35,629 bases of DNA from Gammaproteobacteria bacterium (lineage in GTDB: Bacteria; Pseudomonadota; Gammaproteobacteria; Pseudomonadales; Cellvibrionaceae). The position numbers were made by a program, and so were the translations under genes. The DNA is taken from assembly GCA_005801205.1 (NCBI GenBank), contig SYDJ01000130.1:1-35629 (forward strand). Direction: 5' to 3'. The notes under the pieces were generated by a model that was not told the DNA's origin, searched no databases, and was given only the letters and a program-made list of their open reading frames with translations. Below, piece after piece: positions 1,191 to 21,194 of this stretch (positions are counted from its first letter, which is position 1; each line of letters starts with the position of its first letter).

Positions 1191-1400
1191 AAGGTTAACT
1201 CGTAATTAGTGATGATGGATCAACTATAGCGCTAATAATCTCATCACGGAACACTCAAAGGTATAGACATCGTTTAATTGTGGATTGATTTGAATTACCA
1301 TTGAAAAACAAGCCAATATTTCCGCTGGCAAAAGTATTTTTATTGGTAAAATCATTTACAATTATTTACATTTGTTTGGAGTGGGCTAATCATTTCTTTA

Positions 1401-1423
1401 CGTATGGTTGGGTGAACCATACG
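1401..1423. promoter_or_regulatory. Perfect inverted repeat upstream of the TonB-dependent receptor, candidate operator
   Basis: CGTATGGTT-gggtg-AACCATACG, 9-bp perfect arms, 5-nt spacer, about 140 nt upstream of the preferred start codon. Confidence 0.5.
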
Positions 1424-1564
1424 TCAGTTATCTATAGCATGGAAAAGTTGCGAGGAGCGTCTAAACTCTTTTCGCAGCTTGCTAAAACAACAGCGAAATG
1501 TCGTTTCGGCTATCTAAAAATTACACAAAAATCACCTAATCATAATGTTAAAAAGGGGTTGGCT

Positions 1565-4500
1565 ATGGGATTCCATAAAAATAATCAGGGCGACGCAGTA
1601 AAAAGCGTGAGATTTAAACGATCAATGCTTGCAATGTGTGTGATGGCGCTTAGCGCACCATCTTTCGCTCAAGATGCACCAAAAAATGATGATGCCGTTG
1701 AAGAGGTTATTATTACGGGCCAGCGTGCAAACCTTCAAAGCGCTCAAGAAATTAAACGTAATGCGTCTACATTTGTAGACTCAATCTCCTCAGAAGACAT
1801 TGGCTCATTACCTGATCGTAGTGTACTTGAAGCTATGTCGCGTATTCCTGGCGTATCTATCGAGCGTTTTGCGGCAGCGAACGATCCTGACCATTTTGGT
1901 GTGGAAGGTTCAGGTGCAGTAATTCGTGGTATGAGCGCCACTCGCTCAGAGTTTAATGGTCGCGATTCGTTCACTGCTAACTCTGGCCGTGGCTTGAGTT
2001 TCCAAGACGTGCCGCCAGAGTTAATGGCTGGCGTTGATATTTATAAAAACCAATCTGCTGACATGATTGAAGGTGGTATTGGCGGTACGGTGAGCTTGCG
2101 TACTCGCAAACCCTTTGACTCTCCTGAGCGACTTCTTGCGTTTAACGTAGATTATTCATACGGTGATTTAGCAGAGGGTTGGACGCCAACTCTATCTGGT
2201 TTGTATAGTGATCGTTGGGAAACATCGGCAGGTGAATTTGGGCTATTGGTTAACGCCTCAAACTCTAAGTTAAAAGGTGTTTCTAATGGGATCCAGGCGG
2301 ATGCCTATGTTCCATATCTTGACGATTACACAAATTTCCCTCGTCCCTTAGATACCAGTAATGGTCCTGCAGGAAACCATGCTGGGCCTAATGATATAAA
2401 AGGTGCTGAGCGATTTGCTGAAGCCGGCAAAGGTGTTTGGTTGCCAGGCGGTTCAAATGCTTCAATGAAAAATGATGATCGTGATCGCAAAGGCTTTGCT
2501 GCTGCCCTCCAATGGCAAGACACTGATCAGACTCTCCTTAGCACTACACAATTTTTACGCTCTGATGCGACCTTATCTTGGAAAGAAAACACCATAGGCT
2601 TTCAATCAGGTTACGACAGACGCCGTAGTTTGCCGCTTGAGGGTACAGAATATACCTTTGATGACAACGGCTTGTTCCAAGCGGGTACTATCACCAATGA
2701 TGGTGGGTTCGGTTCCAATGGCTGGCGCGCGCGCGATGGTGACGTTACCGATAGCGCGCGTATACCCAATCACGCATCTTGGGCAAACCCGAATTTACGT
2801 GTTTTTGGTAGCCAGTTCCAAACTGCTACACGTATGAAAGAAACGCACACCGTTATTAACGATTTCTCAACAACTCTGAAATGGACTCCCAGTGATAAAT
2901 GGGAATTTACCGCCGATTTACAATATATAAAAGCCGACACTTCCGATGATGACGGTGCAATTATGTTGGCGATGAATGCTATACAAAGTTTTGACACGCG
3001 CGGAGATTTGGCGAAGGTGACCTTCATGGAGCCTTGGCATGGGGTGCGTGATAAGAATATGCAAATCAACTGTGGCGGCAAAGAAAAAGGCGAGACGTGC
3101 CCTGGTTCTGAAGGCTTGGGACTCTTTGGTGTAGCGGGTGCAGGTACATTGGTTGGCGGCAAAACAATGCCTGGTTTCTCTGATGATCCTTTAGGTGACA
3201 GCAATTACTTCCAAGATAAAAACTCCTATAACTGGCAATCTGCAATGGATCACTACGAGCGTTCAGAAGGTGATTCTAAAGCGGCGCGGTTCGATTCCAC
3301 CTATCATTTTGATGAAGGCTTGATTACCTCCGTCAAAGCGGGTATCCGTTATGCTGATCGTGAGCAAACCGTCAGATCAACTACCTATAATTGGGGTGGT
3401 TTATTCCCGGTTTTTGCTAAAACACCAACGGGTATGGGTTGGGTGGATACACCTGGCGTGGGTAATCTTAATGGCGAGTGGGAATACGTTGATTGGAGCA
3501 ATTTCCAGCGCGGCGATTCAATGACAGTTCCAGGCGACGGTTTCTTGCATCCTAAAGCATCCTTAGTTAAGGACATGATTAACGGGCGCATGTTGGATAC
3601 TGGTGGTATTCTCAACCTCGATAATCCATGGGAGCGTATTGATCAAAGAGCGGGTGGTACGCCTGGGAATATATTCCTACCTTCTGAAATTTTTATAACG
3701 GGGGAAACCAATAAGTCGGCCTATGTTCGTTTTGATTTTGAAACGGATATAGCGGATCACAAAGCCAAAGGTAACTTTGGTCTCCGATATGTGAAGCTAG
3801 ATCGAACTGCAACAGGTTCGGTGCAATACCCAGATTTAATCACAAAAACTCCCGTTCCAGCTGGCGCTCCCTCACCTAAAGATATTGCTGCGTCCGACAT
3901 ATATGAAGCTCAGAAAAGAGCGGAGATAGAGGCGACATATGACGCAGAAAATGAGTATGTGCCGATTCCAGTCGGTGTAGAGCCTACGGCCGATCAGCTT
4001 AAAGCCGCCTCTGATAGGGAAACGGCAGTTAATAAGTTGCTCGAACCTATCATGAGCTATAGAAATACGTCTCAAAATTTCTTGAACGATACAGAGTTAG
4101 GCTTCGGTAACAATGCGGCCTCGGTAGAGAACGCTGAAAATTCATACGATGCCTATTTGCCAAGCTTTAACCTTGCTGTCAGCCTCACTGATGATTTGTT
4201 GGTGCGTTTTGCAGCGTCAAAAGCTATAGCCTTGCCTGATATGGGCGATGTGAGAAATACAACCTCATTGGATCCCTTGAATATTTTGGCAACTACGCGA
4301 ATCACGCCAAATCCACAGCCCTTTTTGCAACCAAGAAGAGCAATGGTTGGCGCGCAAGTAGAGAGCTGGACCGGAACTGCGGGTAACCCATACTTAAATC
4401 CGATGGAGTCTAAGCAGTTTGATTTGTCCTTAGAATGGTATTTTGCGAAGGCTGGTTCTGTCACCTTCACTGCGTTCAAAAAAGATCTGTCTAACTTCTT

Positions 4501-5119
4501 CATCAACGGAACCTTTGATCGTAGCTATACCAACCCTGTTAGCGGAGTCACGCAAACTGCTGAGGTTACTGGGACAATCAATAATGGTGAAGGTAATCTC
4601 AACGGGTTTGAATTTGCTTATCAGCAATTCTATGACTTCTTGCCTGCACCGTTTGATGGTTTAGGTTTGCAGGCTAACTTTAGCTACATTGATTCTAAAT
4701 CAATACCAAATGCAGGTAGCTTGGCTCTTGATAATGGTGGTGATATAGATACAGGGGCTCGTGTAGATCTGAACGGCTTGCCTTTGCAGGGGCAATCAAA
4801 AAGAACCTACAACGTCGCCGCAATGTATGAAAAGGATGAATGGTCGGTGCGTTTGGCATATAACTGGCGTTCTCGTTATTTGTTGACTACCAGAGACGTA
4901 ATCAGCCGTTTCCCATTGTGGAACGATGACTACGGAACCTTAGACGGTTCAATCTCTTATAAAATTAACGATAACTTCACAACGGGCATTCAGTTTAACA
5001 ACCTGACTAATGCTACTACTAAAACCATCATGATTCTGGATGGTAAAGGTTTGGAAGCGGGTCGTTCATGGTTCCAAAATGACCGTCGTGTTTCTGTGCA
5101 GTTGAAGGGCACGTTCTAA
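1565..5119 (+). CDS. TonB-dependent receptor (Xanthomonas/Caulobacter-type, TIGR01782-like)
   Basis: Start at MGFHKNN... preferred over the 1301 start because a signal peptide (KRSMLAMCVMALSAPSFAQ) follows; then VEEVIITGQRANLQSAQEIKRNA, plug-domain features (IPGVSIERF, VIRGM, GGTVSLRTRKPFD) and C-terminal beta-strand ending in VSVQLKGTF. Confidence 0.92.
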   Translation: MGFHKNNQGDAVKSVRFKRSMLAMCVMALSAPSFAQDAPKNDDAVEEVIITGQRANLQSAQEIKRNASTFVDSISSEDIGSLPDRSVLEAMSRIPGVSIERFAAANDPDHFGVEGSGAVIRGMSATRSEFNGRDSFTANSGRGLSFQDVPPELMAGVDIYKNQSADMIEGGIGGTVSLRTRKPFDSPERLLAFNVDYSYGDLAEGWTPTLSGLYSDRWETSAGEFGLLVNASNSKLKGVSNGIQADAYVPYLDDYTNFPRPLDTSNGPAGNHAGPNDIKGAERFAEAGKGVWLPGGSNASMKNDDRDRKGFAAALQWQDTDQTLLSTTQFLRSDATLSWKENTIGFQSGYDRRRSLPLEGTEYTFDDNGLFQAGTITNDGGFGSNGWRARDGDVTDSARIPNHASWANPNLRVFGSQFQTATRMKETHTVINDFSTTLKWTPSDKWEFTADLQYIKADTSDDDGAIMLAMNAIQSFDTRGDLAKVTFMEPWHGVRDKNMQINCGGKEKGETCPGSEGLGLFGVAGAGTLVGGKTMPGFSDDPLGDSNYFQDKNSYNWQSAMDHYERSEGDSKAARFDSTYHFDEGLITSVKAGIRYADREQTVRSTTYNWGGLFPVFAKTPTGMGWVDTPGVGNLNGEWEYVDWSNFQRGDSMTVPGDGFLHPKASLVKDMINGRMLDTGGILNLDNPWERIDQRAGGTPGNIFLPSEIFITGETNKSAYVRFDFETDIADHKAKGNFGLRYVKLDRTATGSVQYPDLITKTPVPAGAPSPKDIAASDIYEAQKRAEIEATYDAENEYVPIPVGVEPTADQLKAASDRETAVNKLLEPIMSYRNTSQNFLNDTELGFGNNAASVENAENSYDAYLPSFNLAVSLTDDLLVRFAASKAIALPDMGDVRNTTSLDPLNILATTRITPNPQPFLQPRRAMVGAQVESWTGTAGNPYLNPMESKQFDLSLEWYFAKAGSVTFTAFKKDLSNFFINGTFDRSYTNPVSGVTQTAEVTGTINNGEGNLNGFEFAYQQFYDFLPAPFDGLGLQANFSYIDSKSIPNAGSLALDNGGDIDTGARVDLNGLPLQGQSKRTYNVAAMYEKDEWSVRLAYNWRSRYLLTTRDVISRFPLWNDDYGTLDGSISYKINDNFTTGIQFNNLTNATTKTIMILDGKGLEAGRSWFQNDRRVSVQLKGTF

Positions 5120-5252: not shown

Positions 5253-6806
5253 ATGCTGAACGATAAAACTAAAACAATAACAATTGTAGGCGGCGGAACC
5301 GCAGGCTGGATGGCTGCTGCTGCGCTGGTACGATTTTTTCCTAAAGAGCATTATACCGTTCAATTAGTAGAGTCCGATTCAATTGGTACGGTTGGCGTAG
5401 GTGAAGCAACCGTGCCGCATTTGCGTTATTTTAATAACATGCTTGGCATTGATGAAAATGAATTTATTACGGCAACGCAAGCCACCTATAAATTAGGTAT
5501 TCAGTTCGAAAACTGGGGGCAGATTGGCGAGTCTTACATTCATCCGTTCGGCAGCCATGGCTACCCAATAAATGAAATCGCTTTTCATCACTACTGGATT
5601 AAATTACATCAGCAAAAAAAAGTTGTTCCTTTTGATCAGTTTTCAATGGCGGTGGTGGCTGCAGAATATGGAAAATTTAACTATCCATCGGATGACGCTA
5701 ATTCTCCGCTATCAACATACACCTATGCATTTCATATAAATGCTAGTGCATATGCGAGCTATTTACGGCAATATTCGGAGCCCAAAGGTTTGCTTCGAAT
5801 TGAAGGAAAAATAAACACAGTTGCTGTAAATAATCATGGCGAGATAGATCATCTTGTTTTGGAGTCAGGAAAAGCCATTTATGGTGATCTATTTATAGAT
5901 TGCTCTGGGTTTCGTGGTTTGTTAATAGAAGACGTTTTAAAAACAGGCTATGAAAATTGGAGCCATTGGTTGTTGTGTGATAGGGCGATAGCCATGCCTA
6001 GCGAGCCACAAAAAAATGCCGCGTTATTTACACGAGCTATTGCGCATGATTTCGGCTGGCAGTGGCAGATTCCATTGCAACATCGCACGGGGAATGGTTA
6101 TGTATATTCCAGCCAATTTATTTCTGATGATGTCGCTCATAAAACCTTGCTTGAAAATCTTAATACTGCTCCTATAGGCGAGCCAAATCTGCTCAGGTTT
6201 ACACCGGGACGCCGCATAAATAGCTGGAATAAAAACTGTGTGGCTATTGGTTTGGCAAGCGGATTTTTAGAGCCGTTGGAGTCTACGAGTATTTATTTAA
6301 TACAAATAGCTATTTTGAAACTGCTAGAATTTTTTCCTGAAGATTCAAATACAGCTATAAAGCGTGACGAATTTAATCGTCAAATAAAAAGTGAGTACGA
6401 AAAAATCAGAGATTTTATCGTACTGCACTACCATCTTAATAGGCGCACTGATTCTGACTTATGGAAATACTGCGCACAAATGAATTTGCCTGACGATCTT
6501 TTACGTAAGAAACAATTGTTTTATCAGTCTGGGCATGTTGAAAAGTATAGGCATGGGTTGTTTATGGAGCCCAGCTGGCTTGCGGTGTATCTTGGGCAAG
6601 CAAATCCGCCGATACATTATGATAAGCGAGTTGATATTTATGATAACGGTGCTCTGCCTGCCTATTTTAGTCGAATTGCACAAGAGGTAAAAAATATAGC
6701 GGAAAAAATGCCGGTAGCGGATAGGAATCTTTATAAAATGGTGGAGCAAAAAGCAAAAAAATATTCGACCGCGAGCATGAGTTTATATGGTGGGAATGTA
6801 AAGTGA
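5253..6806 (+). CDS. Tryptophan-halogenase family flavoprotein, canonical type (A1)
   Basis: IVGGGTAGWMAAAAL (FAD binding), IGTVGVGEATVP, ATYKLGIQFENW (Lys79-equivalent), GWQWQIPLQHRTGNG (WxWxIP), GLASGFLEPLESTSIYLI (Glu346-equivalent plus ST). Confidence 0.92.
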   Translation: MLNDKTKTITIVGGGTAGWMAAAALVRFFPKEHYTVQLVESDSIGTVGVGEATVPHLRYFNNMLGIDENEFITATQATYKLGIQFENWGQIGESYIHPFGSHGYPINEIAFHHYWIKLHQQKKVVPFDQFSMAVVAAEYGKFNYPSDDANSPLSTYTYAFHINASAYASYLRQYSEPKGLLRIEGKINTVAVNNHGEIDHLVLESGKAIYGDLFIDCSGFRGLLIEDVLKTGYENWSHWLLCDRAIAMPSEPQKNAALFTRAIAHDFGWQWQIPLQHRTGNGYVYSSQFISDDVAHKTLLENLNTAPIGEPNLLRFTPGRRINSWNKNCVAIGLASGFLEPLESTSIYLIQIAILKLLEFFPEDSNTAIKRDEFNRQIKSEYEKIRDFIVLHYHLNRRTDSDLWKYCAQMNLPDDLLRKKQLFYQSGHVEKYRHGLFMEPSWLAVYLGQANPPIHYDKRVDIYDNGALPAYFSRIAQEVKNIAEKMPVADRNLYKMVEQKAKKYSTASMSLYGGNVK

Positions 6807-8254
6807 ATATCCCCGTTAAAAAAATACTGATTGTTGGTGGCGGGCTTATAGGTTGGTGGGCCGCCGTTTTTCTTAAAAAAAGTGTACCTAATATTCATAT
6901 CAGTATTTTGAATTCGCAAGTAGAGGATACTTATGCGGAAACACTGGAGCCTAATTTTGCCAATTATTTGCAATTGATAGGGCTAACCGAACAACATATT
7001 ATCAAATATACAGATGGCAACTTTGCTTTTGCTCAAGCGTATTTTGGCTGGCTGCGCACTGGCAATAATTACTTTCACTCGGCAGATGGGTTGAGTTTTG
7101 ATTACGATGCAGTTGAGTTTAATCAATGGATATTAAAGCTTAGAAAAAATGATCCATCAATTAAAATAGATGATTATTCAGTGTCTGCAGTTGCAGCGAG
7201 ATTGGGTAAGTCGCCGTTAAGATTGAATAAAAAACCAATAGCTGCTTTAAGTTTTGATTTGGGTTTGCTCAAGAAATTGCTTATGTCCTACGCTCTTGAT
7301 CTGGCGATTGACGTAATTAATAAAGAGTTACTAGCAGTAGAGCTTGATTCGGCGGGCGATATTGACTTTATTGTAGCGTCTGACGCTAGTATTTTAACCA
7401 GCGATTTTTATATTGATGCAAGCGGCTATACGGGCGATTTAATCGCTAAGGCTATGGGGGTTGCCTATGAATCTTGGTCGGCTTATTTGCCATTTCATAA
7501 AAAGAAAATCAGTGTGGTTCCCCAGCAAGATTCTCGATTAATTCCCTTTACTTCCCTGCAGTTAACGCAGCAAGGATGGCTTAAAAGCATCCCGCTTAAA
7601 AATAAAATAGTCTGTGAATATATTTATGATGATGCCTTGCTTGGCGCGGAGAATGGAAAAAACGCAATAGCTGATTTTTTTGTGAATGGACAAGATGTTA
7701 ATTTTTATCCGGGGCAGCGCCAAAAAATATGGCATAAAAACTGTCTTGCAATGGGTGCGGCAGCTATTACGGCTGATGGTTTCAGTCATTCTCCCTTGTA
7801 TTTGGCTGCAGTAACTTTAAAACAATTTATGGCCTACTGGCCAAGCCACCAGCAATTTGATGCTGTTGAAAATGAATTTAATCGCTTAATGCGTACAGAG
7901 TATGAATCTATTAGAGACTTGCATTGCTTGCATTATGCCGTGATTAACATGCAAGCGTTTTCCACAAATACTTTTTGGCGTGAAATTAAATTGCCTGAAT
8001 CGCTGCAATATCGATTAGATCTTTTTATGGAAACTGGTCGTGCACTACCGGATGAAAGTACCTTGCTTCATCCTTCACAATGGATACACCTAGCGTTGGG
8101 GTTGGGTTGTTGGCCAAGAAAATATGACTATATCGCTAGTCATCACAGTGATGATATTTATGTTCAGTATTCGCAAAGTATAAAAGCTAGTATTCAAGCG
8201 TCGATAGAAAACTTGCCTGATTATACTGATTACCTTAAGAGTTATATTTCCTAA
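6803..8254 (+). CDS. Tryptophan-halogenase-like paralog with degenerate catalytic motifs (B1)
   Basis: IVGGGLIGWWAAVFLKK retained; family layout retained (DFYIDASGYTGDLI, GQRQKIWHKNCLAMG, EFNRLMRTEYESIRDLHCLHY); Lys position is Ala (GNFAFAQAYFGW), LEST replaced (ADGFSHSPLYL), WxWxIP replaced (GWLKSIPLKNK). GTG start, 4-nt overlap with the previous gene. Confidence 0.85.
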   Translation: MNIPVKKILIVGGGLIGWWAAVFLKKSVPNIHISILNSQVEDTYAETLEPNFANYLQLIGLTEQHIIKYTDGNFAFAQAYFGWLRTGNNYFHSADGLSFDYDAVEFNQWILKLRKNDPSIKIDDYSVSAVAARLGKSPLRLNKKPIAALSFDLGLLKKLLMSYALDLAIDVINKELLAVELDSAGDIDFIVASDASILTSDFYIDASGYTGDLIAKAMGVAYESWSAYLPFHKKKISVVPQQDSRLIPFTSLQLTQQGWLKSIPLKNKIVCEYIYDDALLGAENGKNAIADFFVNGQDVNFYPGQRQKIWHKNCLAMGAAAITADGFSHSPLYLAAVTLKQFMAYWPSHQQFDAVENEFNRLMRTEYESIRDLHCLHYAVINMQAFSTNTFWREIKLPESLQYRLDLFMETGRALPDESTLLHPSQWIHLALGLGCWPRKYDYIASHHSDDIYVQYSQSIKASIQASIENLPDYTDYLKSYIS

Positions 8255-8298
8255 TTTCTATTATCAAATACTCTATTTTTGAGCAGAACACTAAGCGC

Positions 8299-9810
8299 AT
8301 GAATCAACACTCAATAAAAAAAATTGTTATTGTGGGCGGCGGTACGGCTGGCTGGATGACTGCTGCAGCTTTAGCAAAAAAGTTTTTGCCAATCAACATG
8401 GATATAGTGCTTGTCGAAAGTGAAGCTATTGGAACTGTCGGCGTTGGTGAGTCTACCATTCCGCACATTAGGGGCTTCAATGAATATTTAGGAATAGATG
8501 AGAGTTTCTTTATTGCGGAAACCAAAGCAACCTTTAAATTAGGTATCGCCTTTAAACATTGGGGGCAGTTAGGTAATGATTATATTCATCCCTTTGGTCC
8601 GCTCGGTCATGATATAAATGGCGTTGAGTTTCATCATTACTGGCTGCGAATGCAGCAAGAGGGAAGTAAATATCCGCTCGACAATTATTCCATGGCTGCA
8701 ATGGCTGCGCGTGCTGGTAAATTCCAGCATCCATCGACGGATTCAATGTCATTATTATCAAATTATAATTATGCCTTTCATTTTGATGCGGCTTTGTACG
8801 CTAAATATTTACGAAGATATGCAGAGGCAATAAATGTTAAGCGAATTGAAGGTATTGTTGCTGCAACAAACCTAAATTCGGATAACGGATTTATTGAGTC
8901 TATTAGGTTGGATTCTGGCATTACCCTTGGTGGTGATTTATTTATTGATTGCACTGGTTTTAAAGGAATTTTAATTGATAAGGTATTAAATGCAAAGTTT
9001 GAAGATTGGAGTCATTGGCTGCGTTGCGATAAAGCAATAGCAGTTCCTTGCGCGCTTTCTGAAGAAAAATTAACGCCTTATACGCAGGCAACGGCGCAAC
9101 AAGCTGGCTGGCAGTGGCGAATTCCATTGCAACACCGCACGGGTAATGGTCATGTTTATGCAAGTGATTATTTGAGTGATGATGAAGCTGCAGCAATTTT
9201 GCTAAAAAATTTAGATGGCGAACCTTTGGCAGAGCCAAAATTTTTTACATTTAAGGCCGGTCAGAGAAAACAAAATTGGGAAAAAAATTGTGTCGCTATA
9301 GGCTTGTCAGGCGGTTTTCTGGAGCCATTAGAGTCTACCAGTATTTATCTTATTCAGGTGGGGATTCAAAAATTATTGGATTTCTTCCCGGATAAGAATT
9401 TTGCGAAAGCGAATAGCGCTGAATTTAACCGTCAACTTGATGAAGAATATGTGCGCATTCGTGATTTTATTATTATGCACTACAAAGAAAATGCACGCGA
9501 AGACTCCCCATTTTGGATGGATTGTAAAAACATGTCGGTGCCGGATGCCTTAGCGCAACGACAAAAGCTGTTTAAAAGCACTGGTTATGTAGATCATCAG
9601 CAATACGGAGTTTATGCTGCTGTTTGTATTGGGCAGGGGTTAATTCCTGACGTGTATGATTTTAAGATTAATGCATTTTCTCATCATAAAATTGCCGCAT
9701 ATCTTGAAAAAATCCATGGCAATATAAATGCAGCAGTTGCTTCGATGCCATTTGCGCAGGACTATATTAATCGTATTCTTGCTAACACTAATCAAGGCAA
9801 GCCATTATGA
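8299..9810 (+). CDS. Tryptophan-halogenase family flavoprotein, canonical type (A2)
   Basis: IVGGGTAGWMTAAAL, IGTVGVGESTIPH, ATFKLGIAFKHW, GWQWRIPLQHRTGNGHVY, GLSGGFLEPLESTSIYLI. Confidence 0.92.
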   Translation: MNQHSIKKIVIVGGGTAGWMTAAALAKKFLPINMDIVLVESEAIGTVGVGESTIPHIRGFNEYLGIDESFFIAETKATFKLGIAFKHWGQLGNDYIHPFGPLGHDINGVEFHHYWLRMQQEGSKYPLDNYSMAAMAARAGKFQHPSTDSMSLLSNYNYAFHFDAALYAKYLRRYAEAINVKRIEGIVAATNLNSDNGFIESIRLDSGITLGGDLFIDCTGFKGILIDKVLNAKFEDWSHWLRCDKAIAVPCALSEEKLTPYTQATAQQAGWQWRIPLQHRTGNGHVYASDYLSDDEAAAILLKNLDGEPLAEPKFFTFKAGQRKQNWEKNCVAIGLSGGFLEPLESTSIYLIQVGIQKLLDFFPDKNFAKANSAEFNRQLDEEYVRIRDFIIMHYKENAREDSPFWMDCKNMSVPDALAQRQKLFKSTGYVDHQQYGVYAAVCIGQGLIPDVYDFKINAFSHHKIAAYLEKIHGNINAAVASMPFAQDYINRILANTNQGKPL

Positions 9811-11282
9811 CGATAAAAAAAATAGTCATTGTTGGTGGTGGTGCTGTGGGGTGGTCCGTCGCTGCATTATTAAGAGCGCAATTTCCTCGTGAATTAGTGG
9901 TTATTCAACTAATAGAGGATTCGCGCAAAGATGCACTGTCTGTTGAGTGCGCAAGTTCTAGAATACACAGTTTTCATGATTTGATTGGATTGCAGGAAAA
10001 AATATGTATGCTTGATCCCTATACCCATTTTGGGCTAGGGGTTATGTATGAGGGTTGGAGTTATGATTCCCAGAAATATATGTTAGCTGGGGGGTATTAC
10101 GGAGCATCCTTGGATGGTGTTGATTTTCAAAATATCTATATAAAAAATTATCTTTCCGGTGAAAAAAACGATCTGGATGACTTCTCGTTGAATGCCGTGG
10201 CGGCAAAATTAGGTCGTTTTGGGCACCCTTCATCAGATTCGCAATCAATTTATTCTGCTATTAAATATGGGCTTCATTTTCAGCTTGACAGTTATGCTGA
10301 TATTTTAAAATCTCATGCCTTGGCGTTGGGGATTGATGTAATTATTGCAGACTGTACAGCTGTTAGTCGCGATAATAATAGCGGCAATATTACTTCTTTG
10401 GAGTTAGATAGTCAGCATTCTGTAATGGCTGATTTATATATTGATTGTACCGGTGAGGCAAGTGTCTTATTGGGTGATGCATGTGGTGTTAAATGCGCTA
10501 GCGATGATATGGATATTCTATGTGATAGAGTTGCTATAGGTTATAGATTGCAGTCTTCTTTGTTGCCTTCTATAGCGGTTCTGACCAGTACGGCTGATGG
10601 TTTCTTTAAAGTTATACCCTTAAAGGATCGGGATGTAATAGTTTATTATTTTTCCAGTGATTTGATCCGCGAGAATGACATCGAAACAATGCTAGCTACC
10701 TGGGGCTTTACTCATGTAACCATCGCGAATTATCGCTCTTATCGACGTGAAAAATTTTGGGTTAATAATTGTTTGGCTATAGGTCATTCAGGTGCACGCT
10801 ATTGTGATTTATTAGTGTCCCCTTTACAGAGCGTAAGAGACTCTATTGTAAGATTTTTGGATTTGTTCATTGATTTTGACAATGTTGACGCATCTCGAGA
10901 TGAGTTCAACCGTCTTTCACATATTGAGCTTGATAATATAAATGAAGTTATAGAGCTTCATATGTATGCATCGCAACATCATTCCGCAGTTTCATGCCGT
11001 TATTTTTCCTCGCATTCGCTGTCATCAAGTTCAGCGCATCGACTAAATTTATTTGTGTCTAATGGCCGGCATACGCATTGTGATCTAAGTTTGTTAACTG
11101 ACATTGAATGGGCTGCATTTTTTATAGGGAATAAAATTATTCCTAAATCCTATAGTTATGATGTGGATTTTTTGGATGGAGAAAGGGTGCGTGATTTTTT
11201 AAGTAAATTAAAAGCAGTTATTTTTGAGTCTGCACAAAAAATACCAAAACATGCAGATTATATCAAAAGTTTGTTGAAATAA
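9807..11282 (+). CDS. Tryptophan-halogenase-like paralog with degenerate catalytic motifs (B2)
   Basis: IVGGGAVGWSVAALLRAQF retained; YGLHFQLDSYADIL and DLYIDCTGEAS retained; Lys position is Gly (THFGLGVMYEGW), LEST absent (NCLAIGHSGARYCDLLVSPLQS), WxWxIP replaced (GFFKVIPLKDRD). ATGA overlap with the previous gene. Confidence 0.85.
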   Translation: MTIKKIVIVGGGAVGWSVAALLRAQFPRELVVIQLIEDSRKDALSVECASSRIHSFHDLIGLQEKICMLDPYTHFGLGVMYEGWSYDSQKYMLAGGYYGASLDGVDFQNIYIKNYLSGEKNDLDDFSLNAVAAKLGRFGHPSSDSQSIYSAIKYGLHFQLDSYADILKSHALALGIDVIIADCTAVSRDNNSGNITSLELDSQHSVMADLYIDCTGEASVLLGDACGVKCASDDMDILCDRVAIGYRLQSSLLPSIAVLTSTADGFFKVIPLKDRDVIVYYFSSDLIRENDIETMLATWGFTHVTIANYRSYRREKFWVNNCLAIGHSGARYCDLLVSPLQSVRDSIVRFLDLFIDFDNVDASRDEFNRLSHIELDNINEVIELHMYASQHHSAVSCRYFSSHSLSSSSAHRLNLFVSNGRHTHCDLSLLTDIEWAAFFIGNKIIPKSYSYDVDFLDGERVRDFLSKLKAVIFESAQKIPKHADYIKSLLK

Positions 11283-11295
11283 TTAAGGTGATAAA

Positions 11296-12813
11296 ATGAG
11301 TGAAGATAATCGCATTAAAAAAATCATTATTGTTGGTGGTGGTACATCTGGCTGGATGTCTGCGGCAGCGTTAATAAAGCTATTGAAAGATAAGTACTGT
11401 GAAATTCATTTAATTGAGTCTGAAGATATCGGCACTGTTGGGGTGGGCGAAGCTACTATTCCGCAGATTCAGATGTTTAATAAATTGCTTGATCTTGATG
11501 AAGATGAGTTTGTACGAAAAACTCAAGGTACATTTAAATTAGGAATTCAATTTGTTAACTGGAAACAAATTGGTCAAAAGTACTTTCACGCTTTTGGTGA
11601 TGTTGGCAGAGATATAGAATCTATTCAATTTTACCATTATTGGTTAAAGCTATTTAAGTTGGGAGAGGCGCAGGATTTAGGGGAGTATACTATTAGCGGT
11701 GTAGCCTCTGATCGCGGAAAATTTATGCGGCCGTTTGATGCAGGCAACTCTCCATTGACAAATATTGCCTATGCATTTCATTTTGATGCAGGTTTGTATG
11801 CACGGTTTCTTCGTGAATATTCTGAGGGCCGTGGTGTAGTGCGTACGGAAGGTAAAGTGGTAAGTACGCAATTAAATTCTGATAGCGGTTTTATCGAGTC
11901 CGTGACGCTTGAGGGCGGACAAAAGATTGAAGCAGATTTTTTTATTGATTGTTCAGGCTTTCGCGGGTTGTTGATTGAGGAGGCATTGCAAACTGGTTAT
12001 GAAGACTGGACGCATTGGCTTCCTTGTGACAGAGCTATTGCAGTGCCTTGTGCCTCGGCACCCTATCTGACTCCTTATACCCGTTCTACGGCGCATTCTG
12101 CCGGTTGGCAATGGCGGATTCCATTGCAGCATCGTATTGGCAATGGTCATGTATTTAGCAGTCAGTTTATGGCTGAATCTGAAGCAGAAACTATTTTATT
12201 AAAGAATCTAGATGGAGAGCCTTTGGCGCAACCGCGACAATTGAAGTTCACAACGGGTAAGCGTAAAAAATTCTGGAATAAAAACTGTTTAGCAATTGGA
12301 TTGGCAAGCGGTTTTATGGAGCCATTGGAGTCTACTAGCATTCATTTGGTGCAATCATCTATTGCACGGCTGATGACATTTTTTCCAAATAAGCATTTTG
12401 CTCAGGAGGATATTGATGAGTTTAATAATCAAGCACATTTTGAATTTGACCGCATTCGTGACTTTTTAATTTTGCATTATAAAGTTACCGAGCGCGATGA
12501 TTCCGATTTCTGGCGTTATTGCCGAAATATGTCAATACCGGATACATTGACGCAAAAAATTGAACAATTTAAAAGAAATGGACGTATTTTTCGTACCAGC
12601 AATGAAATGTTTAGTGATTTAAGTTGGCTCGAGGTTATGCATGGGCAAGGTATTCGGCCAGAGGGATATCATCCACTTGTCGATTTGATGTCAAAAGAAG
12701 ACATTGCAAATCGATTGGAAAGTGTTAAACGCGTAATTGATAAATCGGTTGATTATATGCCCACACATGAGCAATTCATTGCTGAAAACTGCCCAGCAAA
12801 AAAGATGATGTAG
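11296..12813 (+). CDS. Tryptophan-halogenase family flavoprotein, canonical type (A3)
   Basis: IVGGGTSGWMSAAAL, IGTVGVGEATIPQ, GTFKLGIQFVNW, GWQWRIPLQHRIGNGHVF, GLASGFMEPLESTSIHLV. Confidence 0.92.
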   Translation: MSEDNRIKKIIIVGGGTSGWMSAAALIKLLKDKYCEIHLIESEDIGTVGVGEATIPQIQMFNKLLDLDEDEFVRKTQGTFKLGIQFVNWKQIGQKYFHAFGDVGRDIESIQFYHYWLKLFKLGEAQDLGEYTISGVASDRGKFMRPFDAGNSPLTNIAYAFHFDAGLYARFLREYSEGRGVVRTEGKVVSTQLNSDSGFIESVTLEGGQKIEADFFIDCSGFRGLLIEEALQTGYEDWTHWLPCDRAIAVPCASAPYLTPYTRSTAHSAGWQWRIPLQHRIGNGHVFSSQFMAESEAETILLKNLDGEPLAQPRQLKFTTGKRKKFWNKNCLAIGLASGFMEPLESTSIHLVQSSIARLMTFFPNKHFAQEDIDEFNNQAHFEFDRIRDFLILHYKVTERDDSDFWRYCRNMSIPDTLTQKIEQFKRNGRIFRTSNEMFSDLSWLEVMHGQGIRPEGYHPLVDLMSKEDIANRLESVKRVIDKSVDYMPTHEQFIAENCPAKKMM

Positions 12814-12903: not shown

Positions 12904-13566
12904 CTATTTGGCGCATCCTTTCTCGCCCTCAGGCAATTTTTGTAAGCGAATATTGACGATGGTTAACCCCAATTTCCCTTCTGTACTTATTAATACTGGG
13001 CCACTAATTTTTTTAATATCGAGCCCTTCTTTGGTGAAGCAATTAAGTGGGATAGGGAATGTGGTCCACTCATCTTTCTTCAAGTCTTTCAACATAGCGC
13101 TAACCTGTATTTCACTGCGGCAAGGGTAGCCGCAATCCATACCGAAGGTGACATCTTTGTCGGGCTTCATATCCATCTTCATATCAAACACAATTGCACC
13201 TTCATTTTCAAATTTACTCAAGTCAAGTGCAGCCCCAGAAATAGCAAATACACCCTTAACGGCTTTGCGTGGTGACCAAGAAAGTTTTAGAGCATCGCCT
13301 GTCGCCTGAAAATCTATGGGCTCGATAGATACTTTGCCAGTGGCGGATTTACCTTTGCGGCTGGCATCAACGGAGGTTGACCAGTTTTCTGGATCGCCTA
13401 GTTGAATACCCCAGCCGCCTACGGTCTTGCCTTCAGACATGTAGTTAAAATTTGGGTTAATAGCTGGTTTTGCAGCGTCTGCTGCGTGCACCACTTGTAC
13501 GCACAGGCTAGAAAAAAGGGCTGCGCAAAAAAACGTTTTAATGGCGTGTTTGGAACGGTTAGTCAT
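12904..13566 (-). CDS. Secreted standalone ExoP_C-like (galactose-binding-like) domain protein
   Basis: Start at MTNRSKHAIKTFFCAALFSSLCVQVVHAA (signal peptide, GAGGTAAT RBS upstream); VTFGMDCGYPCRSEIQVSAMLKDLKKDEWTTFPIPLNCFTKEGLDIKKISGPVLISTEGKLGLTIVNIRL resembles the C-terminal domain of ExoP-type GH3 glucan hydrolases. Confidence 0.6.
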   Translation of the reverse strand: MTNRSKHAIKTFFCAALFSSLCVQVVHAADAAKPAINPNFNYMSEGKTVGGWGIQLGDPENWSTSVDASRKGKSATGKVSIEPIDFQATGDALKLSWSPRKAVKGVFAISGAALDLSKFENEGAIVFDMKMDMKPDKDVTFGMDCGYPCRSEIQVSAMLKDLKKDEWTTFPIPLNCFTKEGLDIKKISGPVLISTEGKLGLTIVNIRLQKLPEGEKGCAK

Positions 13567-13690
13567 GATAATTACCTCGTTCTTATTGGTTATAAAGTAA
13601 TGTTTATTCGCACCACATGATCTTTGCAAAGCAGGTGACTATTGTCAAAAACAGAAAAGCGCTTAAATCATTTTCGTAATTTAATAAAAG

Positions 13691-13820: not shown

Positions 13821-15119
13821 TTATAAATTGGTGCAGGCGTTACCTAATAAACCATCGGCAAAACCGCGTAGAGCAGGTTTGTCGTTATATTGCGCATCAA
13901 ACAACAATGGCCAAGAAATTTTCTCATGGTTGAATTGCGTTTTGTAGAGGTCATCTAACCAAGTGGCTCCGTCATTAGAGCCCCACACGGTAATGCCGCC
14001 GCGTTTATCAGCCGGTACTGTCTCCAAATAAGCTTTCACCACTTCACAGTATTTTTTCTTTTGTGCAAGCGCCGCGCTTTGGGTAAAGGTGCTGACTTTA
14101 TTATCGGGGTATGAGTCGCAATAAGGTTGGTTAATCGCAATATCCAATTCCGTAATTTTAACTTTTAAACCTTTATTGACCACTTTTTTCATAGCTGCGG
14201 CAATAGTGGCTGCGCTCGGGTAGTTCAAACAAATATGCATTTGGAAACCGATGCCATCGATTGGAATGCTGCGTGCTTGGAAGTCAGTAATCATCTCAAT
14301 GAGTTTGGTGGTTTTCGCATTATTTTGATCAATGTTGTAGTCGTTGTAGTAAAGGGTTAGGGTTGGGTCAGCTAAGCGCGCGGCTTTAAAGGCGCGTTCA
14401 ATATAGACCGCGCTGTTGCCGCTCTTGGTGTAGAACGTAGAGTCGGTGCGGAAGTTGGAAGGCGTATTGTCGTTTAACGCTTCGTTTACTACATCCCAAC
14501 TGGTGATATTACCCTTGGTTTCAAAGTGATCGACAATAGTCGTGACGTGGGTGTCCAGCATGGTTAAAAACTCATCTGCAGTGCCAGCCCAGTCTTTCAT
14601 AAAGTTGGGTACCTGATAGCTTGAATGCCATACCAAGGCGTGGCCGTGAATTTTCATATTTTTGGTTTTCGCATAATCAACAAAAGCATCGGCATTGGTG
14701 AAGGTGAAGCTCGCTTGCGTTGGGTGTAAATAGCTGACTTTCATAATGTTGCCCGCCGTCATTTGGTTGAAATGTTTTTCAGTCACGGCTTTTTCAGATG
14801 CATTGGTGAGAATGTTGTAGGGGGGTGAATCGTTATTAGACACAGCAATGCCAATCGGGAAAACTGCTAAGTCTTTTAAGCTATTAACATTTGCTGAGTA
14901 AGCCGATGAGCCGGAAGAATTGGCTAGACTCGAGCTACTGTTTGAATTGCTGGTGCTGGATGAGCTGCTACTCACCACATTGGACGAGCTACTGCTAATG
15001 ATGGCGGTTGAACTACTTGCTACTGGTAGGGTGCTTGAACTGTCACCGTCTTCCCCTCCGCCGCACGCAGAGAGAATTAGGCTTAGTGAGATGAGCGAAT
15101 ATAGTTGACGACTGTGCAT
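13821..15119 (-). CDS. GH10 endo-beta-1,4-xylanase, lipoprotein with Ser-rich linker
   Basis: Lipobox LSAC after signal peptide; poly-Ser/Asn linker; GHALVWHS, TSWDVVNEAL (acid/base Glu), KITELDIAI (nucleophile Glu), ITVWGSNDGATWL. Confidence 0.93.
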   Translation of the reverse strand: MHSRQLYSLISLSLILSACGGGEDGDSSSTLPVASSSTAIISSSSSNVVSSSSSSTSNSNSSSSLANSSGSSAYSANVNSLKDLAVFPIGIAVSNNDSPPYNILTNASEKAVTEKHFNQMTAGNIMKVSYLHPTQASFTFTNADAFVDYAKTKNMKIHGHALVWHSSYQVPNFMKDWAGTADEFLTMLDTHVTTIVDHFETKGNITSWDVVNEALNDNTPSNFRTDSTFYTKSGNSAVYIERAFKAARLADPTLTLYYNDYNIDQNNAKTTKLIEMITDFQARSIPIDGIGFQMHICLNYPSAATIAAAMKKVVNKGLKVKITELDIAINQPYCDSYPDNKVSTFTQSAALAQKKKYCEVVKAYLETVPADKRGGITVWGSNDGATWLDDLYKTQFNHEKISWPLLFDAQYNDKPALRGFADGLLGNACTNL

Positions 15120-15133
15120 GATGGGAATCCATG

Positions 15134-15162
15134 ATGGTTATTGATGTAGTCAATTAAACCAT
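15134..15162. promoter_or_regulatory. Imperfect inverted repeat upstream of the GH10 gene, candidate operator
   Basis: ATGGTT-attgatgtagtcaatta-AACCAT; arms share ATGGTT/AACCAT with the repeat upstream of the TBDR. Confidence 0.35.
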
Positions 15163-15250
15163 AAGCTATGTTTGCTTGTATACAGCTGCCTTGGGAAGAA
15201 TTGTTAGGATTTATTTATTGGGTGTGCTTTGGCTTAAGGGGCTGAAAATA

Positions 15251-15277
15251 AAAAGACCGCATCGCTGCGGCCTTTTG
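15251..15277 (-). terminator. Terminator downstream of the sugar symporter
   Basis: AAAAGaCCGCA-tcgc-TGCGGcCTTTT, one mismatch. Confidence 0.7.
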
Positions 15278-15295
15278 TGTTCAATGAAAGAAGAA

Positions 15296-16741
15296 TTAAC
15301 CTTCCATTTTTTCTAGCTCGACACCTTTGGTTTCTTTTACCCACCAGATGATGAAGAAAATAGAAAACAATGAGCAGAATGCGTAGATGCTATAGGCACC
15401 AGCTAAGCCGAGTGATGACGCTAATAGAATGGGGAAGGTTGTGGTGATTGTCCAGTTAGCAATCCATTGTGCGAAACCTGCTACGGCTAAACCCGTACCG
15501 CGAATTTGATTTGGGAACATTTCGCCCAGCATAATCCAGACCACTGGGCCCCAAGACATATTAAAGAAAACAACATAAAGGTTGGCTGAAACTAAGGCCA
15601 GTATGCCGGTTGAGCCGCTTAATATGAGGTGACCTTTATCGTCGAGCGGTGCGCCAGCAAAAGCATATGCAACGAGTGCAAGTGTAATGGTCATGCCCAC
15701 TGAACCGATTAATAACAATGGCTTACGGCCAATTTTATCGACTAAAAAGAAGGTGATAAAACAGGCCCCGATGGAGACGACACCGGATACAACGCTAATG
15801 GCTAAAGAGTCGCTTTCAGAGAATCCTGCGGCTTGCCAGAGCACGGCACCGTAATAAAATACAACGTTGATGCCTACAAATTGTTGCAGAACCGCTAAGC
15901 CAACGCCAATCCACAGAATAGGGCGAATACGGCCTTTGGTTTTATCTAGTAGGTCAGAGAACGCGGGTTTATGGTCGTGTGATAAGGATGCATAAATTTC
16001 ATCGGTGGTTTTGAGTGCGGCTTTTTCGCCGTAAAGTTTGGTGAGTACGACTATAGCTTTTTCTTTCTTGCCGTTGCTGACTAAAAAGCGAGGGCTTTCA
16101 GGAATGGTTAGCAGTGTTAGTAAAAATATCACCCCAGGGATAATGCCTACCCAATACATCCAGCGCCACGCAGTAAAGCCAAGCCAGAGTTCATTAACGG
16201 CGGAGCCTGCAGATGTGGCGAGAAAGTAGTTGCTAAGTGCTGCTGCTGTTAAGCCGGAAATAATGGCTATTTGTTGAATGGAGCTTAATTTTCCACGGTA
16301 TTCAGCTGGAACCAATTCACTTATGTAGGCGGGGCAGATAATGCTTGCAGCCCCAATTGCCAAGCCGCCAATCAGTCTATAAATAACGAATTCAAGGGTT
16401 GATGAGGCAACGCCTGCACCCCAAGAAGACAAAATAAACATTGCTGCAGCAAGAAGCAAAATGCCGCGACGGCCGTACGTGTCAGCCCAGGTGCCAGCAA
16501 AAAAAGCGCCAATGGCGCAACCAATAAGAATGGAGGCCACCACTGTGCCTATCGCGTTTGGGTTGATAGTGAATGCTTGGGTGAGCCCATCAACGGTGCC
16601 GTTGACCACACCGCTATCAAAACCGAAAAGAAAGCCGCCAATGGTTGCGATGATGCTTATAAGAACGATGGAGGTCATGTTTCTCTCGCTTGAATCTACG
16701 GAGATACTAACCTCGTTATCTGCTGAGGATGGTGAGTGCAT
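15296..16741 (-). CDS. MFS sugar porter family transporter, probable D-xylose:H+ symporter
   Basis: GGFLFGFDSGVVNG, ADTYGRRGILL, VPAEYRGKLSSIQQ, PESPRFLVSNGK, DKIGRKPLLLIGS, PNQIRGTGLAV and VKETKGVELEKME; located beside xylAB. Confidence 0.88.
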   Translation of the reverse strand: MHSPSSADNEVSISVDSSERNMTSIVLISIIATIGGFLFGFDSGVVNGTVDGLTQAFTINPNAIGTVVASILIGCAIGAFFAGTWADTYGRRGILLLAAAMFILSSWGAGVASSTLEFVIYRLIGGLAIGAASIICPAYISELVPAEYRGKLSSIQQIAIISGLTAAALSNYFLATSAGSAVNELWLGFTAWRWMYWVGIIPGVIFLLTLLTIPESPRFLVSNGKKEKAIVVLTKLYGEKAALKTTDEIYASLSHDHKPAFSDLLDKTKGRIRPILWIGVGLAVLQQFVGINVVFYYGAVLWQAAGFSESDSLAISVVSGVVSIGACFITFFLVDKIGRKPLLLIGSVGMTITLALVAYAFAGAPLDDKGHLILSGSTGILALVSANLYVVFFNMSWGPVVWIMLGEMFPNQIRGTGLAVAGFAQWIANWTITTTFPILLASSLGLAGAYSIYAFCSLFSIFFIIWWVKETKGVELEKMEG

Positions 16742-16964
16742 GGTGATACCTGTTTTTTAAATTATGGGTTGTTGGAATTATGGTAAAGCAATCTGCCGGT
16801 GGAGCACCTCTAAGGCGGTCTCTCTCCCCCTTTAAGGATGCGCGACCATAGCATAGAGCTGTGTTTCTAGCATATGGGTTGGCGTGCGAACTAACTTATT
16901 TTTAGGTACTTTGTTGGCCGTGGCGCTGAGTTTTCACTCAAGGCTTCGCCGCGAAAGTTTATGG

Positions 16965-16981
16965 TAAACCAATATGGTTTA
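16965..16981. promoter_or_regulatory. Inverted repeat upstream of the sugar symporter, candidate operator
   Basis: TAAACCA-ata-TGGTTTA, 7-bp perfect arms; overlaps a second small dyad GTTTA-tgg-TAAAC. Confidence 0.4.
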
Positions 16982-17067
16982 AATGACTATATGTCTTAAT
17001 GGGGGATTTCACGATTTATCGATGGGTTCTGCTCTGGGGTGGTAGCTTGCGTTGTGATCCCAGAATC

Positions 17068-17796
17068 TTAGATTTCAAATGAGAAGCCGCTTTCGCTCAA
17101 GTGCTGATAAGCGTCGGAGTCAAAACGATAGAGGTTGGCGGCGCGATGAGGTACGCCCTGCTGTTTTTCATTGCAAGGCGTCAGAAGGTTCATTTTCATG
17201 ATTTTGCGGCGGAAATTGGGTTTGTCTAATTTGGTATCTAGGATGGCTTCATAGAGTGCTTGCAGCTGCAGCAAGGTGAATTTTTCGGGCAGCAAGTTAA
17301 AGCCTATCGGCTGATGGCGGACTTGATGGCGCAAAAACTTCATACCGTGGGCAATGATTTCGGCATGGTCGTAAATCAAATCGGGCAACGCATTAATACG
17401 TTGCCAGCTCACATCCGCAGCGCTTTGGCCGGCCACCAGCGAGTAGTGTTCTGCGCTCACCAAGGCGTAGTAGGCAATGGTGACCACGCGCTCGGTAGGG
17501 AAGCGGTCAACGCGGCCGAAGGTTTTGAGTTGCTCAAGATAGAGCTGCTTAACGCCCGTTAATTCTTCTAGCAAACGATAGGCAGCATCGCGCAGGTTTT
17601 CATCGTAGCGAATCCAGCCGCCGGGGAGTGCCCACTTGCCTTGGTGCATAGGGTCTGTTTGCTTGACCAGCAATATCTTCAGTTCGTCGTTATCAAGCCC
17701 GAATACCAAGTTATCAATAGAGAGCGCCTTAATAACATCCTGTGGCAGATTTAAAGGTTCAACATGGCTGTGGGCTGGCGCAACAATATTTGACAC
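17068..17796 (-). CDS. NUDIX-domain (NrtR-like) transcriptional regulator with C-terminal winged helix
   Basis: NUDIX fold region (LLVKQTDPMHQGKWALPGGWIRYDENLRDAAYRLLEELTGV) with a degenerate Nudix box, followed by LLPEKFTLLQLQALYEAILDTKLDKPNFRRKIMKMNLL typical of Nudix-related regulators; divergent from xylB. Confidence 0.82.
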   Translation of the reverse strand: MSNIVAPAHSHVEPLNLPQDVIKALSIDNLVFGLDNDELKILLVKQTDPMHQGKWALPGGWIRYDENLRDAAYRLLEELTGVKQLYLEQLKTFGRVDRFPTERVVTIAYYALVSAEHYSLVAGQSAADVSWQRINALPDLIYDHAEIIAHGMKFLRHQVRHQPIGFNLLPEKFTLLQLQALYEAILDTKLDKPNFRRKIMKMNLLTPCNEKQQGVPHRAANLYRFDSDAYQHLSESGFSFEI

Positions 17797-18089
17797 GATG
17801 GATTCCTGAACGAATTGGCGATAGGTGGCTATTCTAAAATAGCGGCGTAAGCTTGTGTAAAAAATGGCGTCATATGCGCCATCATCCTAAGTGTGCGGCC
17901 TCATTGTAGCGATCACCCCCCAATTGTCCACAAGAAGTATATGGGCAAAAGTCTTTATATTTATCTTGTGGTCAATGGGACAATAAGATATGTTATACAC
18001 ATCGCAAGAATAAGCATTCATGAGTTCTATGCTTGATTGGCAACGAATGGAATTTGCTGCTTCATTATTTCCCTTAAAAGAGATTCATT

Positions 18090-19577
18090 ATGTTGTTTCT
18101 AGGTATTGATGTTGGAAGCTCCTCCACCAAATTATCTGTGCTCGATGGCAAAACCGGCAAATGCCTAGGCGCCTTGTCTTACCCTGAAACCGAGCTTGCC
18201 ATTGCCAGCCCAGAAGTTGGCTTTGCAGAGCAAGATCCAAGCGTGTGGTGGGATTGCATCCAGAAGGGCGCTGCTAAGCTTTTTGCCACGGGTAAGTTTG
18301 AGAGTAAACACATTCAAGCGATCGGGATCTCCTACCAAATGCACGGGTTGGTGGTGGTAGATGCTGAGCAGCAAGTGCTGCGCCCCTCCATTATTTGGTG
18401 TGATAGCCGTGCCGTTCCTCTGGGCAACGCCGCCTTGGCGGATATGGGCCGCGATTATTGTTTTGGCCATTTATTGAACTCACCTGGCAACTTCACTGCG
18501 GCCAAATTGCGTTGGGTGCAAGAAAATCAGCCTGAAATTTTTAGCAAAATTCACAAAGTTATGTTGCCCGGCGATTACATCGCCATGAAATTAACCGGTG
18601 AAATCACCACCACGGCTTCAGGTTTATCGGAAGGCACTTTGTGGGATTTCAAAGCGCAGCGTGTCGCTACCGAGTTGTTGGAGCATTGGGGAATTGATTC
18701 CTCCGTTATTCCTACCATTGTTCCCAGCTTTGGCGTGCAGGGCACCGTTAAAGCCGATGTTGCTGCAGCCTTAGGTTTGGGTAGTCATGTAAAAGTGTGC
18801 TATCGCGGTGGCGATCAGCCCAACAATGCTTTTAGTCTCAATGTGCTTGAGCCGGGCGAGGTGGCGGCAACGGCGGGAACATCGGGCGTTATTTATGGCG
18901 TGACCGATAAGCCAGCGGCAGATCTCGATTCGCGCGTAAATACCTTTTTGCATGTCACAAATACCGAAGCGCAAAAGCGCAACGGTGTTCTAGTCTGTGT
19001 AAATGGCTGTGGCCGGTTGTACTCTTGGTTGCGTCAAACGCTAAGTCAATCGGGCGCTACACCTTCTTATCCTTTGTTGAACAGTCTTGCTGAACACGTT
19101 GCGGTGGGCAGCGAGGGTTTGGTGTTTCATCCTTTCGGCAATGGCGCAGAGCGTATTTTCCAAAATCAAAATATCGGCGCGCAATTGCGCAATCTGGATT
19201 TTAACCGTCATGGCCTCGGTCACATGGTGCGTGCTGCGCAAGAGGGCATAGTGTTTTCGCTCAACCAAGGTTTCGATGTATTGAAATCCTTGGGCGGTAG
19301 TTGCGATGTGGTTCGCGCAGGCAAAGGCAATATGTTTTTGAGCGATGTGTTCACCCAAGCCTTTGCGAACACCACGCAAGCGGCAGTGGAATTATTTGAA
19401 ACCGATGGTGCCGAAGGCGCAGCGCGCGCAGCGGCTATTGGCTGTGGTTTTTATGTCTCTGCCAAAGAAGCCTTTGGTGGTTTAACACGTCTGGGCGTGG
19501 TTGAACCTAAACAGGCGCTCTTAGCTCAGTATCAAGATGCATATCAATATTGGGTGTCATTGTTGCCCACACAATAA
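18090..19577 (+). CDS. xylB: Xylulokinase
   Basis: FGGY kinase motifs: FLGIDVGSSSTKLSVLD, EVGFAEQDPSVWW, GISYQMHGLVVVD, LPGDYIAMKLTGE, YRGGDQPNNAFSLN, ATAGTSGVIYGV; adjacent to xylA. Confidence 0.93.
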   Translation: MLFLGIDVGSSSTKLSVLDGKTGKCLGALSYPETELAIASPEVGFAEQDPSVWWDCIQKGAAKLFATGKFESKHIQAIGISYQMHGLVVVDAEQQVLRPSIIWCDSRAVPLGNAALADMGRDYCFGHLLNSPGNFTAAKLRWVQENQPEIFSKIHKVMLPGDYIAMKLTGEITTTASGLSEGTLWDFKAQRVATELLEHWGIDSSVIPTIVPSFGVQGTVKADVAAALGLGSHVKVCYRGGDQPNNAFSLNVLEPGEVAATAGTSGVIYGVTDKPAADLDSRVNTFLHVTNTEAQKRNGVLVCVNGCGRLYSWLRQTLSQSGATPSYPLLNSLAEHVAVGSEGLVFHPFGNGAERIFQNQNIGAQLRNLDFNRHGLGHMVRAAQEGIVFSLNQGFDVLKSLGGSCDVVRAGKGNMFLSDVFTQAFANTTQAAVELFETDGAEGAARAAAIGCGFYVSAKEAFGGLTRLGVVEPKQALLAQYQDAYQYWVSLLPTQ

Positions 19578-19659
19578 ATAACAAAATCTACAAAAGTGTT
19601 AACGCTTTCCAGTTTAAAAAACAACATTCAATTTTTTAGAGCAAACGAGGTTAAACATC

Positions 19660-20991: not shown

Positions 20992-21194
20992 TGCGATTGA
21001 GTGCCATTGTCTGTGCCTGCTTTTTTAATGCTTGGGTGTAAGTTCAGGTATTAAACATAACTGCCAGTCATGAAAGTGAATTCATTGTTTGTGATCGGCA
21101 GTTTACATTTTTGGTATTTGAAAATATAAAAAGTTCATGGCTGCAACATAACGAATAGTAAAAATACAGTTGACAATCCAGTAGAGGTAAACGA

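Follow-up and report, generated by a model that had tools for sequence, protein, structure and literature searches.

We propose that Aup and B, a flavin-dependent halogenase and the degenerate halogenase-family protein encoded immediately downstream of it, constitute an old module in which B is the dedicated non-catalytic partner of the upstream enzyme, likely in a heteromer, stabilizing, activating or specifying it. On balance, we judge this explanation of the locus to be likely, and it is plausible from the sequences that A and B together form one two-component halogenase.

The window, the whole 35,629-nucleotide stretch of DNA analysed, was initially annotated as carrying five consecutive same-strand genes of the tryptophan-halogenase family between 5253 and 12813, and the five open reading frames were confirmed at the positions below, each matching PF04820 over its full length (A1 604, A2 597, A3 663, B1 226 and B2 229 bits). 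The features of the locus are as follows.

1301..5119, + strand: TonB-dependent receptor (TBDR) of the TIGR01782 (TonB-Xanth-Caul) type, 649 bits to TIGR01782, with TonB barrel and plug domains; translation probably begins downstream of the TTG at 1301.
5253..6806, + strand: A1, catalytic-type halogenase of the Aup clade (A genes preceding a B), from PF04820 and motifs; K80 and E343 are kept.
6780..6794, + strand: SLYGG motif in the C-terminal tail of A1, Aup-specific by the count of [LF]Y[GE] among A proteins.
6803..6806, + strand: 4-base stop/start overlap of A1 and B1, with GTG as the B1 start (ORF lists).
6803..8254, + strand: B1, pseudo-halogenase that retains GxGxxG but has neither the GVGE loop nor the catalytic Lys or Glu; fold from AlphaFold2.
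8299..9810, + strand: A2, catalytic-type halogenase of the Aup clade, without an SLYG tail (PF04820, motifs, tree).
9807..9810, + strand: 4-base stop/start overlap of A2 and B2 (ORF lists).
9807..11282, + strand: B2, pseudo-halogenase of the same class as B1 (PF04820, motifs, AlphaFold2).
11296..12813, + strand: A3, a canonical halogenase that groups with the downstream (Adown) paralogs; its identity to the last A of locus L124 is 77%.
12904..13629, - strand: convergent gene with an Exop_C galactose-binding-like domain (Pfam Exop_C, E 2.6e-33).
13821..23639, strands mixed or not given: xylan/xylose genes, namely a GH10 xylanase, an XylE-like sugar MFS transporter, an NrtR/AraR-type NUDIX regulator, an FGGY kinase, a xylose-isomerase-like TIM barrel and a GH3 protein (Pfam, NCBIfam).

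With a TBDR, GH10, GH3 and a sugar transporter, the window has the make-up of a TonB-receptor carbohydrate utilisation locus. In 28/34 B-containing cassettes of family relatives the first A is immediately preceded by a TBDR, and the families flanking other B cassettes include GH18, GH43, GH5, GH3, CBM families, Cupin_8, AraC regulators and Exop_C, the last among the commonest (8 of 102 flanking proteins). Such flanking families are suggestive of polysaccharide use, and those in the window more specifically of xylan. The source assembly (3.5 Mb, 77.5% complete) contains 12 PF04820 genes, two of which are B, and genus relatives hold about 8 to 30 matches per genome. Farther along the window, between 26644 and 35020, are a LuxR-type response regulator (26644-27561), a hybrid histidine kinase (27568-31155) and, from 31472, a periplasmic binding protein followed by two branched-chain-type permease genes.

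A1, A2 and A3 are, as judged from their sequences, canonical flavin-dependent halogenases of the BrvH/Xcc4156 type. The initial annotation had assigned every recognisable halogenase signature to genes 1, 3 and 5, and indeed GGGTxGWM, GVGE[AS]T, [YF]KLGI, WQW[QR]I and EPLEST are kept in all three, which thus combine a full-length PF04820 match with GxGxxG, the GVGE loop, the catalytic Lys, WxWxIP and the catalytic Glu, this Lys and this Glu corresponding to K79 and E346 of PrnA. A3 aligns over its full length with BrvH (PDB 6FRL), Xcc4156 (6Y1W) and the Pseudoalteromonas sp. L11 halogenase (9LUQ) at 520-533 bits. Conservation is nearly complete across 281 A proteins, with GVGE intact in 279, Lys and Glu in all 281 and GxGxxG in 280. 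A second PF04820 type, carrying GVGEG[TS] and EPLEA[TS] and scoring 360-445 bits, was also encountered (L068 15267-16772, L075 5231-6826, L131 10367-11926 and L233 2429-3991); it too lies near TBDRs and is frequent in these genomes.

B1 and B2 have lost the catalytic motifs and kept the fold. The positions of the A motifs read GGGLIGW / -YAETL / FAFAQ / WLKSI / DGFSHS in B1 and GGGAVGW / S-VECA / FGLGV / FFKVI / CDLLVS in B2, such that FAFAQ and FGLGV replace [YF]KLGI, DGFSHS and CDLLVS replace EPLEST, and both the GVGE FAD loop and WxWxIP are absent, while GxGxxG is intact in both proteins. Genes 2 and 4 had been described as retaining the N-terminal FAD motif and the C-terminal helical signature without the catalytic motifs, and this description holds; both also match the overall family profile. 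The two B proteins are 27-28% identical to each other. Their AlphaFold2 models are confident (pLDDT 90.2 for B1 and 93.8 for B2) and their best structural matches are Xcc4156, BrvH and 9LUQ, with TM scores to these BrvH-type solved halogenases of 0.89-0.94 overall, 0.90-0.94 for B1 against the three and 0.93 for B2 against BrvH. Thus the window's B proteins share the fold of the characterised enzymes.

The loss extends to the whole B group. Intact GxGxxG occurs in 18 of 66 B proteins, the Lys in 11, and GVGE and the Glu in 2 each; none has GVGE, Lys and Glu together. Most FAD-domain residues of the IDCSG and W-KNC types survive, and the regions that persist are the N-terminal domain and the helical C-terminal part. 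Short B proteins of 344-403 aa lack the segment between IDCSG and W-x-x-N, roughly 80-150 residues including the WxWxIP motif. They are encoded in a gammaproteobacterium and in alphaproteobacteria (L078 11061-12272, L152 7377-8483, L165 7362-8396, L181 6943-7989 and L196 7419-8456), the hosts of core-deleted B being that of L078 and Sphingorhabdus/Erythrobacter. The deletion end points differ, which suggests at least two independent deletions. The least degraded B, L197 7432-9003 from an alphaproteobacterial MAG, retains GAGEGT, FKLGI and EPLGAT, in the last of which Gly replaces the catalytic Glu; it branches at the base of the B clade and possibly represents an early stage of the lineage.

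Single-protein searches with B1 or B2 found no close relative above about 32% identity in the genus, and a profile built from several B was needed to find B relatives. Two sets of loci were assembled, the first comprising the window and 60 loci taken from relatives in its family and order, the second from named genomes and a 399-genome draw of the phylum, a few of whose loci repeat first-set loci. Within the window's family, about 30 genomes were found to have a TonB receptor-A-B-A cassette. Cassettes in the first set were ABA (26), AB (4), ABABA (3; the window, L062 and L124) and AAB (1), with further loci holding A or AA but no B; these counts are not frequencies because the loci were picked for containing matches. 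The window's array is therefore not unique, being joined by the two further ABABA arrays in L062 and L124. In the second set the common forms were ABAA (alphaproteobacteria, Aestuariibacter) and ABA; ABA or ABAA occurs in Caulobacter, Asticcacaulis, Sphingorhabdus, Erythrobacter, Maricaulis, Glaciecola, Aestuariibacter and Gilvimarinus, and hosts also include Sphingomonas and Pontixanthobacter. Recurrence of the A/B pattern in dozens of genomes is more than chance would give. TBDR-A-A cassettes without B (L073, L080, L081, L115, L126, L127, L129 and L147) were also seen; their first and second A mostly belong to separate clades, a parallel paired arrangement with both enzymes intact.

B is obligately adjacent to an upstream A. 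A search across genomes for conserved A-B adjacency had been suggested, and B lies directly 3' of a same-strand A in 37/37 cases among family relatives of the first set and in 32/34 of the second, the other two being at a sequence end. The genes overlap at 58 of 66 Aup-B junctions, 27 of them by exactly 4 bases (-4). Genome-wide PF04820 profile searches listing all members in G012, G004 and G019 gave scores of about 560-674 bits for canonical A, about 360-445 for the second type and 284-322 for B. Two B were listed in each of G012 and G004, every one inside a cassette, and none in G019. Outside cassettes, the canonical A genes of G012 and G004, and three from G019, score at most 7 bits better with the Aup profile than with the downstream-A profile, compared with a difference of about 75 to 150 bits for the Aup genes of the family that were compared. 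Thus every A outside cassettes in the complete genomes G012 and G004 scores as non-Aup.

Phylogeny indicates a single origin of B. In an IQ-TREE analysis of 173 rows, all 50 B fall on one side of a branch and all 53 Aup likewise form an exclusive group (SH-aLRT 99 each), with downstream A elsewhere; one upstream A (L144) fell outside the Aup clade in the first fast tree. Since B branches are long, a second tree was built in careful mode from an outgroup, 15 of the slower-evolving B and A proteins matched to them. B again formed one clade (100/99), nested within the BrvH-type radiation, which speaks against a long-branch artefact as the cause of the grouping. An exclusive Aup group was recovered in 57% of bootstrap trees of this reduced analysis, and the internal order of B is unsure owing to its branch lengths. 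The trees also bear on the A-B-A-B-A array initially described: live and degenerate genes do alternate, but gene 5 does not repeat genes 1 and 3, A3 belonging to a different paralog clade from A1 and A2, so that three equivalent A genes can be dismissed.

Duplication of an AB unit within the source genome, for which A1/A2 and B1/B2 should be sister pairs, is likewise ruled out as the sister of each module sits in another species. A1/B1 pair with L062 8663/10213 and A2/B2 with L062 5678/7159, the module order being swapped there. This indicates that the modules are old and move as A+B units.

B co-diverges with the upstream A and not with the downstream one. Patristic distances of Aup and B are correlated (Mantel r 0.55, P 1e-4, n 48) whereas those of Adown and B are not (r -0.09, n 33), and the partial r is 0.60 for Aup-B against -0.02 for Adown-B given Aup (the latter with n 26). 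Nearest neighbours are concordant in 30/48 Aup/B pairs where about 1 is expected. Operon linkage alone could produce co-divergence, yet the equally adjacent Adown shows none. Thus Aup-B is the unit of inheritance and gene 5 is a third, different paralog.

In close pairs omega is 0.075-0.25 for B (one pair 0.45), 0.05-0.18 for Aup and 0.03-0.14 for downstream A, values which are approximate because dS is high in several pairs. On these values B is under purifying selection which, together with adjacency that is universal among the B found, upholds the earlier suggestion of a conserved enzyme/pseudoenzyme pair. They also decide against B being decaying pseudogenes or junk copies. That explanation would account for the lost catalytic motifs and for the fast divergence (median patristic distance 7.3 for B against 2.1 for Aup), but omega mostly of 0.08-0.25 and full open frames in alpha- and gammaproteobacteria rule it out, the confident folds and strict gene position speak against it as well, and its probability is close to nil.

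Other roles for B are harder to separate from a partnership. B could act on its own in the A pathway, as a ligand-binding or regulatory protein that perhaps binds substrate or product or presents a carrier, co-transcribed with A and forming no complex with it; retention of the fold and of the N- and C-terminal parts after loss or deletion of the catalytic core would fit such a protein, and operon position alone would explain co-inheritance. That B tracks one specific A subclass, and shows co-divergence with Aup but none with an Adown that is just as adjacent, makes this unlikely. Intact GxGxxG in B1 and B2 and the mostly kept IDCSG- and W-KNC-type residues would instead suit a flavoenzyme that has acquired a new function and a chemistry of its own, or a FAD/FADH2 carrier or reductase serving A. 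Over the 66 B, however, the flavin motifs are mostly broken (GxGxxG intact in 18, GVGE in 2) and some members lack about 80-150 core residues, so that a flavin role is not general and we regard this proposal as quite improbable.

A different question is what the A enzymes do in vivo, which might be another oxidation of the imported ligand through the same active site, modulated by B; this would be compatible with Aup-B pairing. In the available text of PMC7336383 neither BrvH nor the Xanthomonas enzymes have a known natural substrate, and about 10-30 such genes occur per genome, many beside nutrient receptors and glycoside hydrolases. On the other hand, almost no A has lost Lys, Glu or GVGE, and BrvH and Xcc4156 are described as halogenating model substrates in vitro (PMC5945002, PMC7336383). 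We consider this possibility real but doubtful.

Returning to the partnership of Aup and B, the locus would consist of two tandem copies of the old Aup-B module followed by a third halogenase, A3, behind a TonB-dependent receptor. PF04820-type halogenases make HOX from FADH2, O2 and halide. Aup is predicted to be catalytically competent, and the A genes, but not B, would be expected to make HOX. B would have arisen once from such a halogenase, losing the FAD loop along with both catalytic residues (Lys and Glu), and would since have been kept as a dedicated non-catalytic partner. Its most probable association would be a heteromer with the Aup of the preceding gene, possibly by way of the dimer surface that halogenases already use, and Aup activity may depend on B. 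A conserved crystallographic dimer is reported as common to family halogenases (PMC7336383), which makes an Aup-B heterodimer the simplest reading. B would stabilize, activate or specify Aup in the manner of prozyme-type pseudoenzymes, and the pair would act on the ligand brought in by the co-encoded receptor, the window's neighbours pointing to xylan breakdown.

Few residues are fixed in Aup alone, G435 being the clearest, so no interface could be proposed from sequence. The C-terminal tail provides one distinguishing element, [LF]Y[GE] occurring within the last 14 residues of 29/64 Aup and 0/223 other A. The SLYG tail is confined to gammaproteobacterial Aup, many of which carry it, A1 included, and its absence from A2 and alphaproteobacterial Aup rules it out as a universal B-docking site; in each of the three ABABA arrays one Aup has the tail and the other lacks it. 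That it serves as a docking peptide is a guess.

Pairs of halogenase-family genes in one pathway are known from KtzQ and KtzR, which are both active and act in sequence; Aup/B resembles them in pairing and differs in that B lacks catalytic residues. The reference list of PMC8269204 names the KtzQ/KtzR tandem halogenases. BrvH is adjoined by a second halogenase gene, 42.7% identical (PMC5945002), which in the available text is called a halogenase and not degenerate, unlike the window's B. None of BrvH, Xcc4156 and 9LUQ is described with a pseudoenzyme partner in the accessible parts of their reports, and as far as the available text of the BrvH, Xcc4156 and halogenase-genomics papers extends, these treat single enzymes or active tandems (PMC5945002, PMC8269204, PMC7336383). 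The closest functional likeness is to trypanosomatids, in which prozyme, a dead S-adenosylmethionine decarboxylase paralog, and a dead deoxyhypusine synthase paralog are reported to activate the live enzyme as heteromers (PMC5201418, PMC3663545). As proposed for B, a dead paralog is kept there as an obligate activating partner, and B is likewise a single-origin inactive paralog, obligately paired and under purifying selection; those systems, however, are unrelated eukaryotic enzymes and experimentally proven, whereas the Aup-B complex is deduced purely from genomes. TonB-dependent receptor CUT loci (PMC1790865) are alike in joining an outer-membrane receptor to carbohydrate-degrading neighbours in the same broad bacterial groups, and the paper makes no mention of halogenase genes. 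No description of a degenerate halogenase partner was found in the open-access literature; a prior description is possible, as most subscription papers fall outside that search. Recurring as an inseparable unit kept by selection in many alpha- and gammaproteobacteria, the live-plus-dead pair suggests a previously undescribed two-subunit halogenase.

There is perhaps an even chance that the Aup-B module represents a widespread class of heteromeric halogenases in Pseudomonadota, in which a pseudo-halogenase subunit is required or sets specificity and which processes ligands imported by TonB receptors. TonB-receptor-linked halogenases are numerous and structurally studied. If the proposal is true, a dedicated partner would explain why one subclass might have been missed or might fail alone in screens, the partner subunit would be a new handle for stabilizing biocatalyst halogenases, and a pseudoenzyme-dependent system would be added to a family treated as single-gene enzymes.
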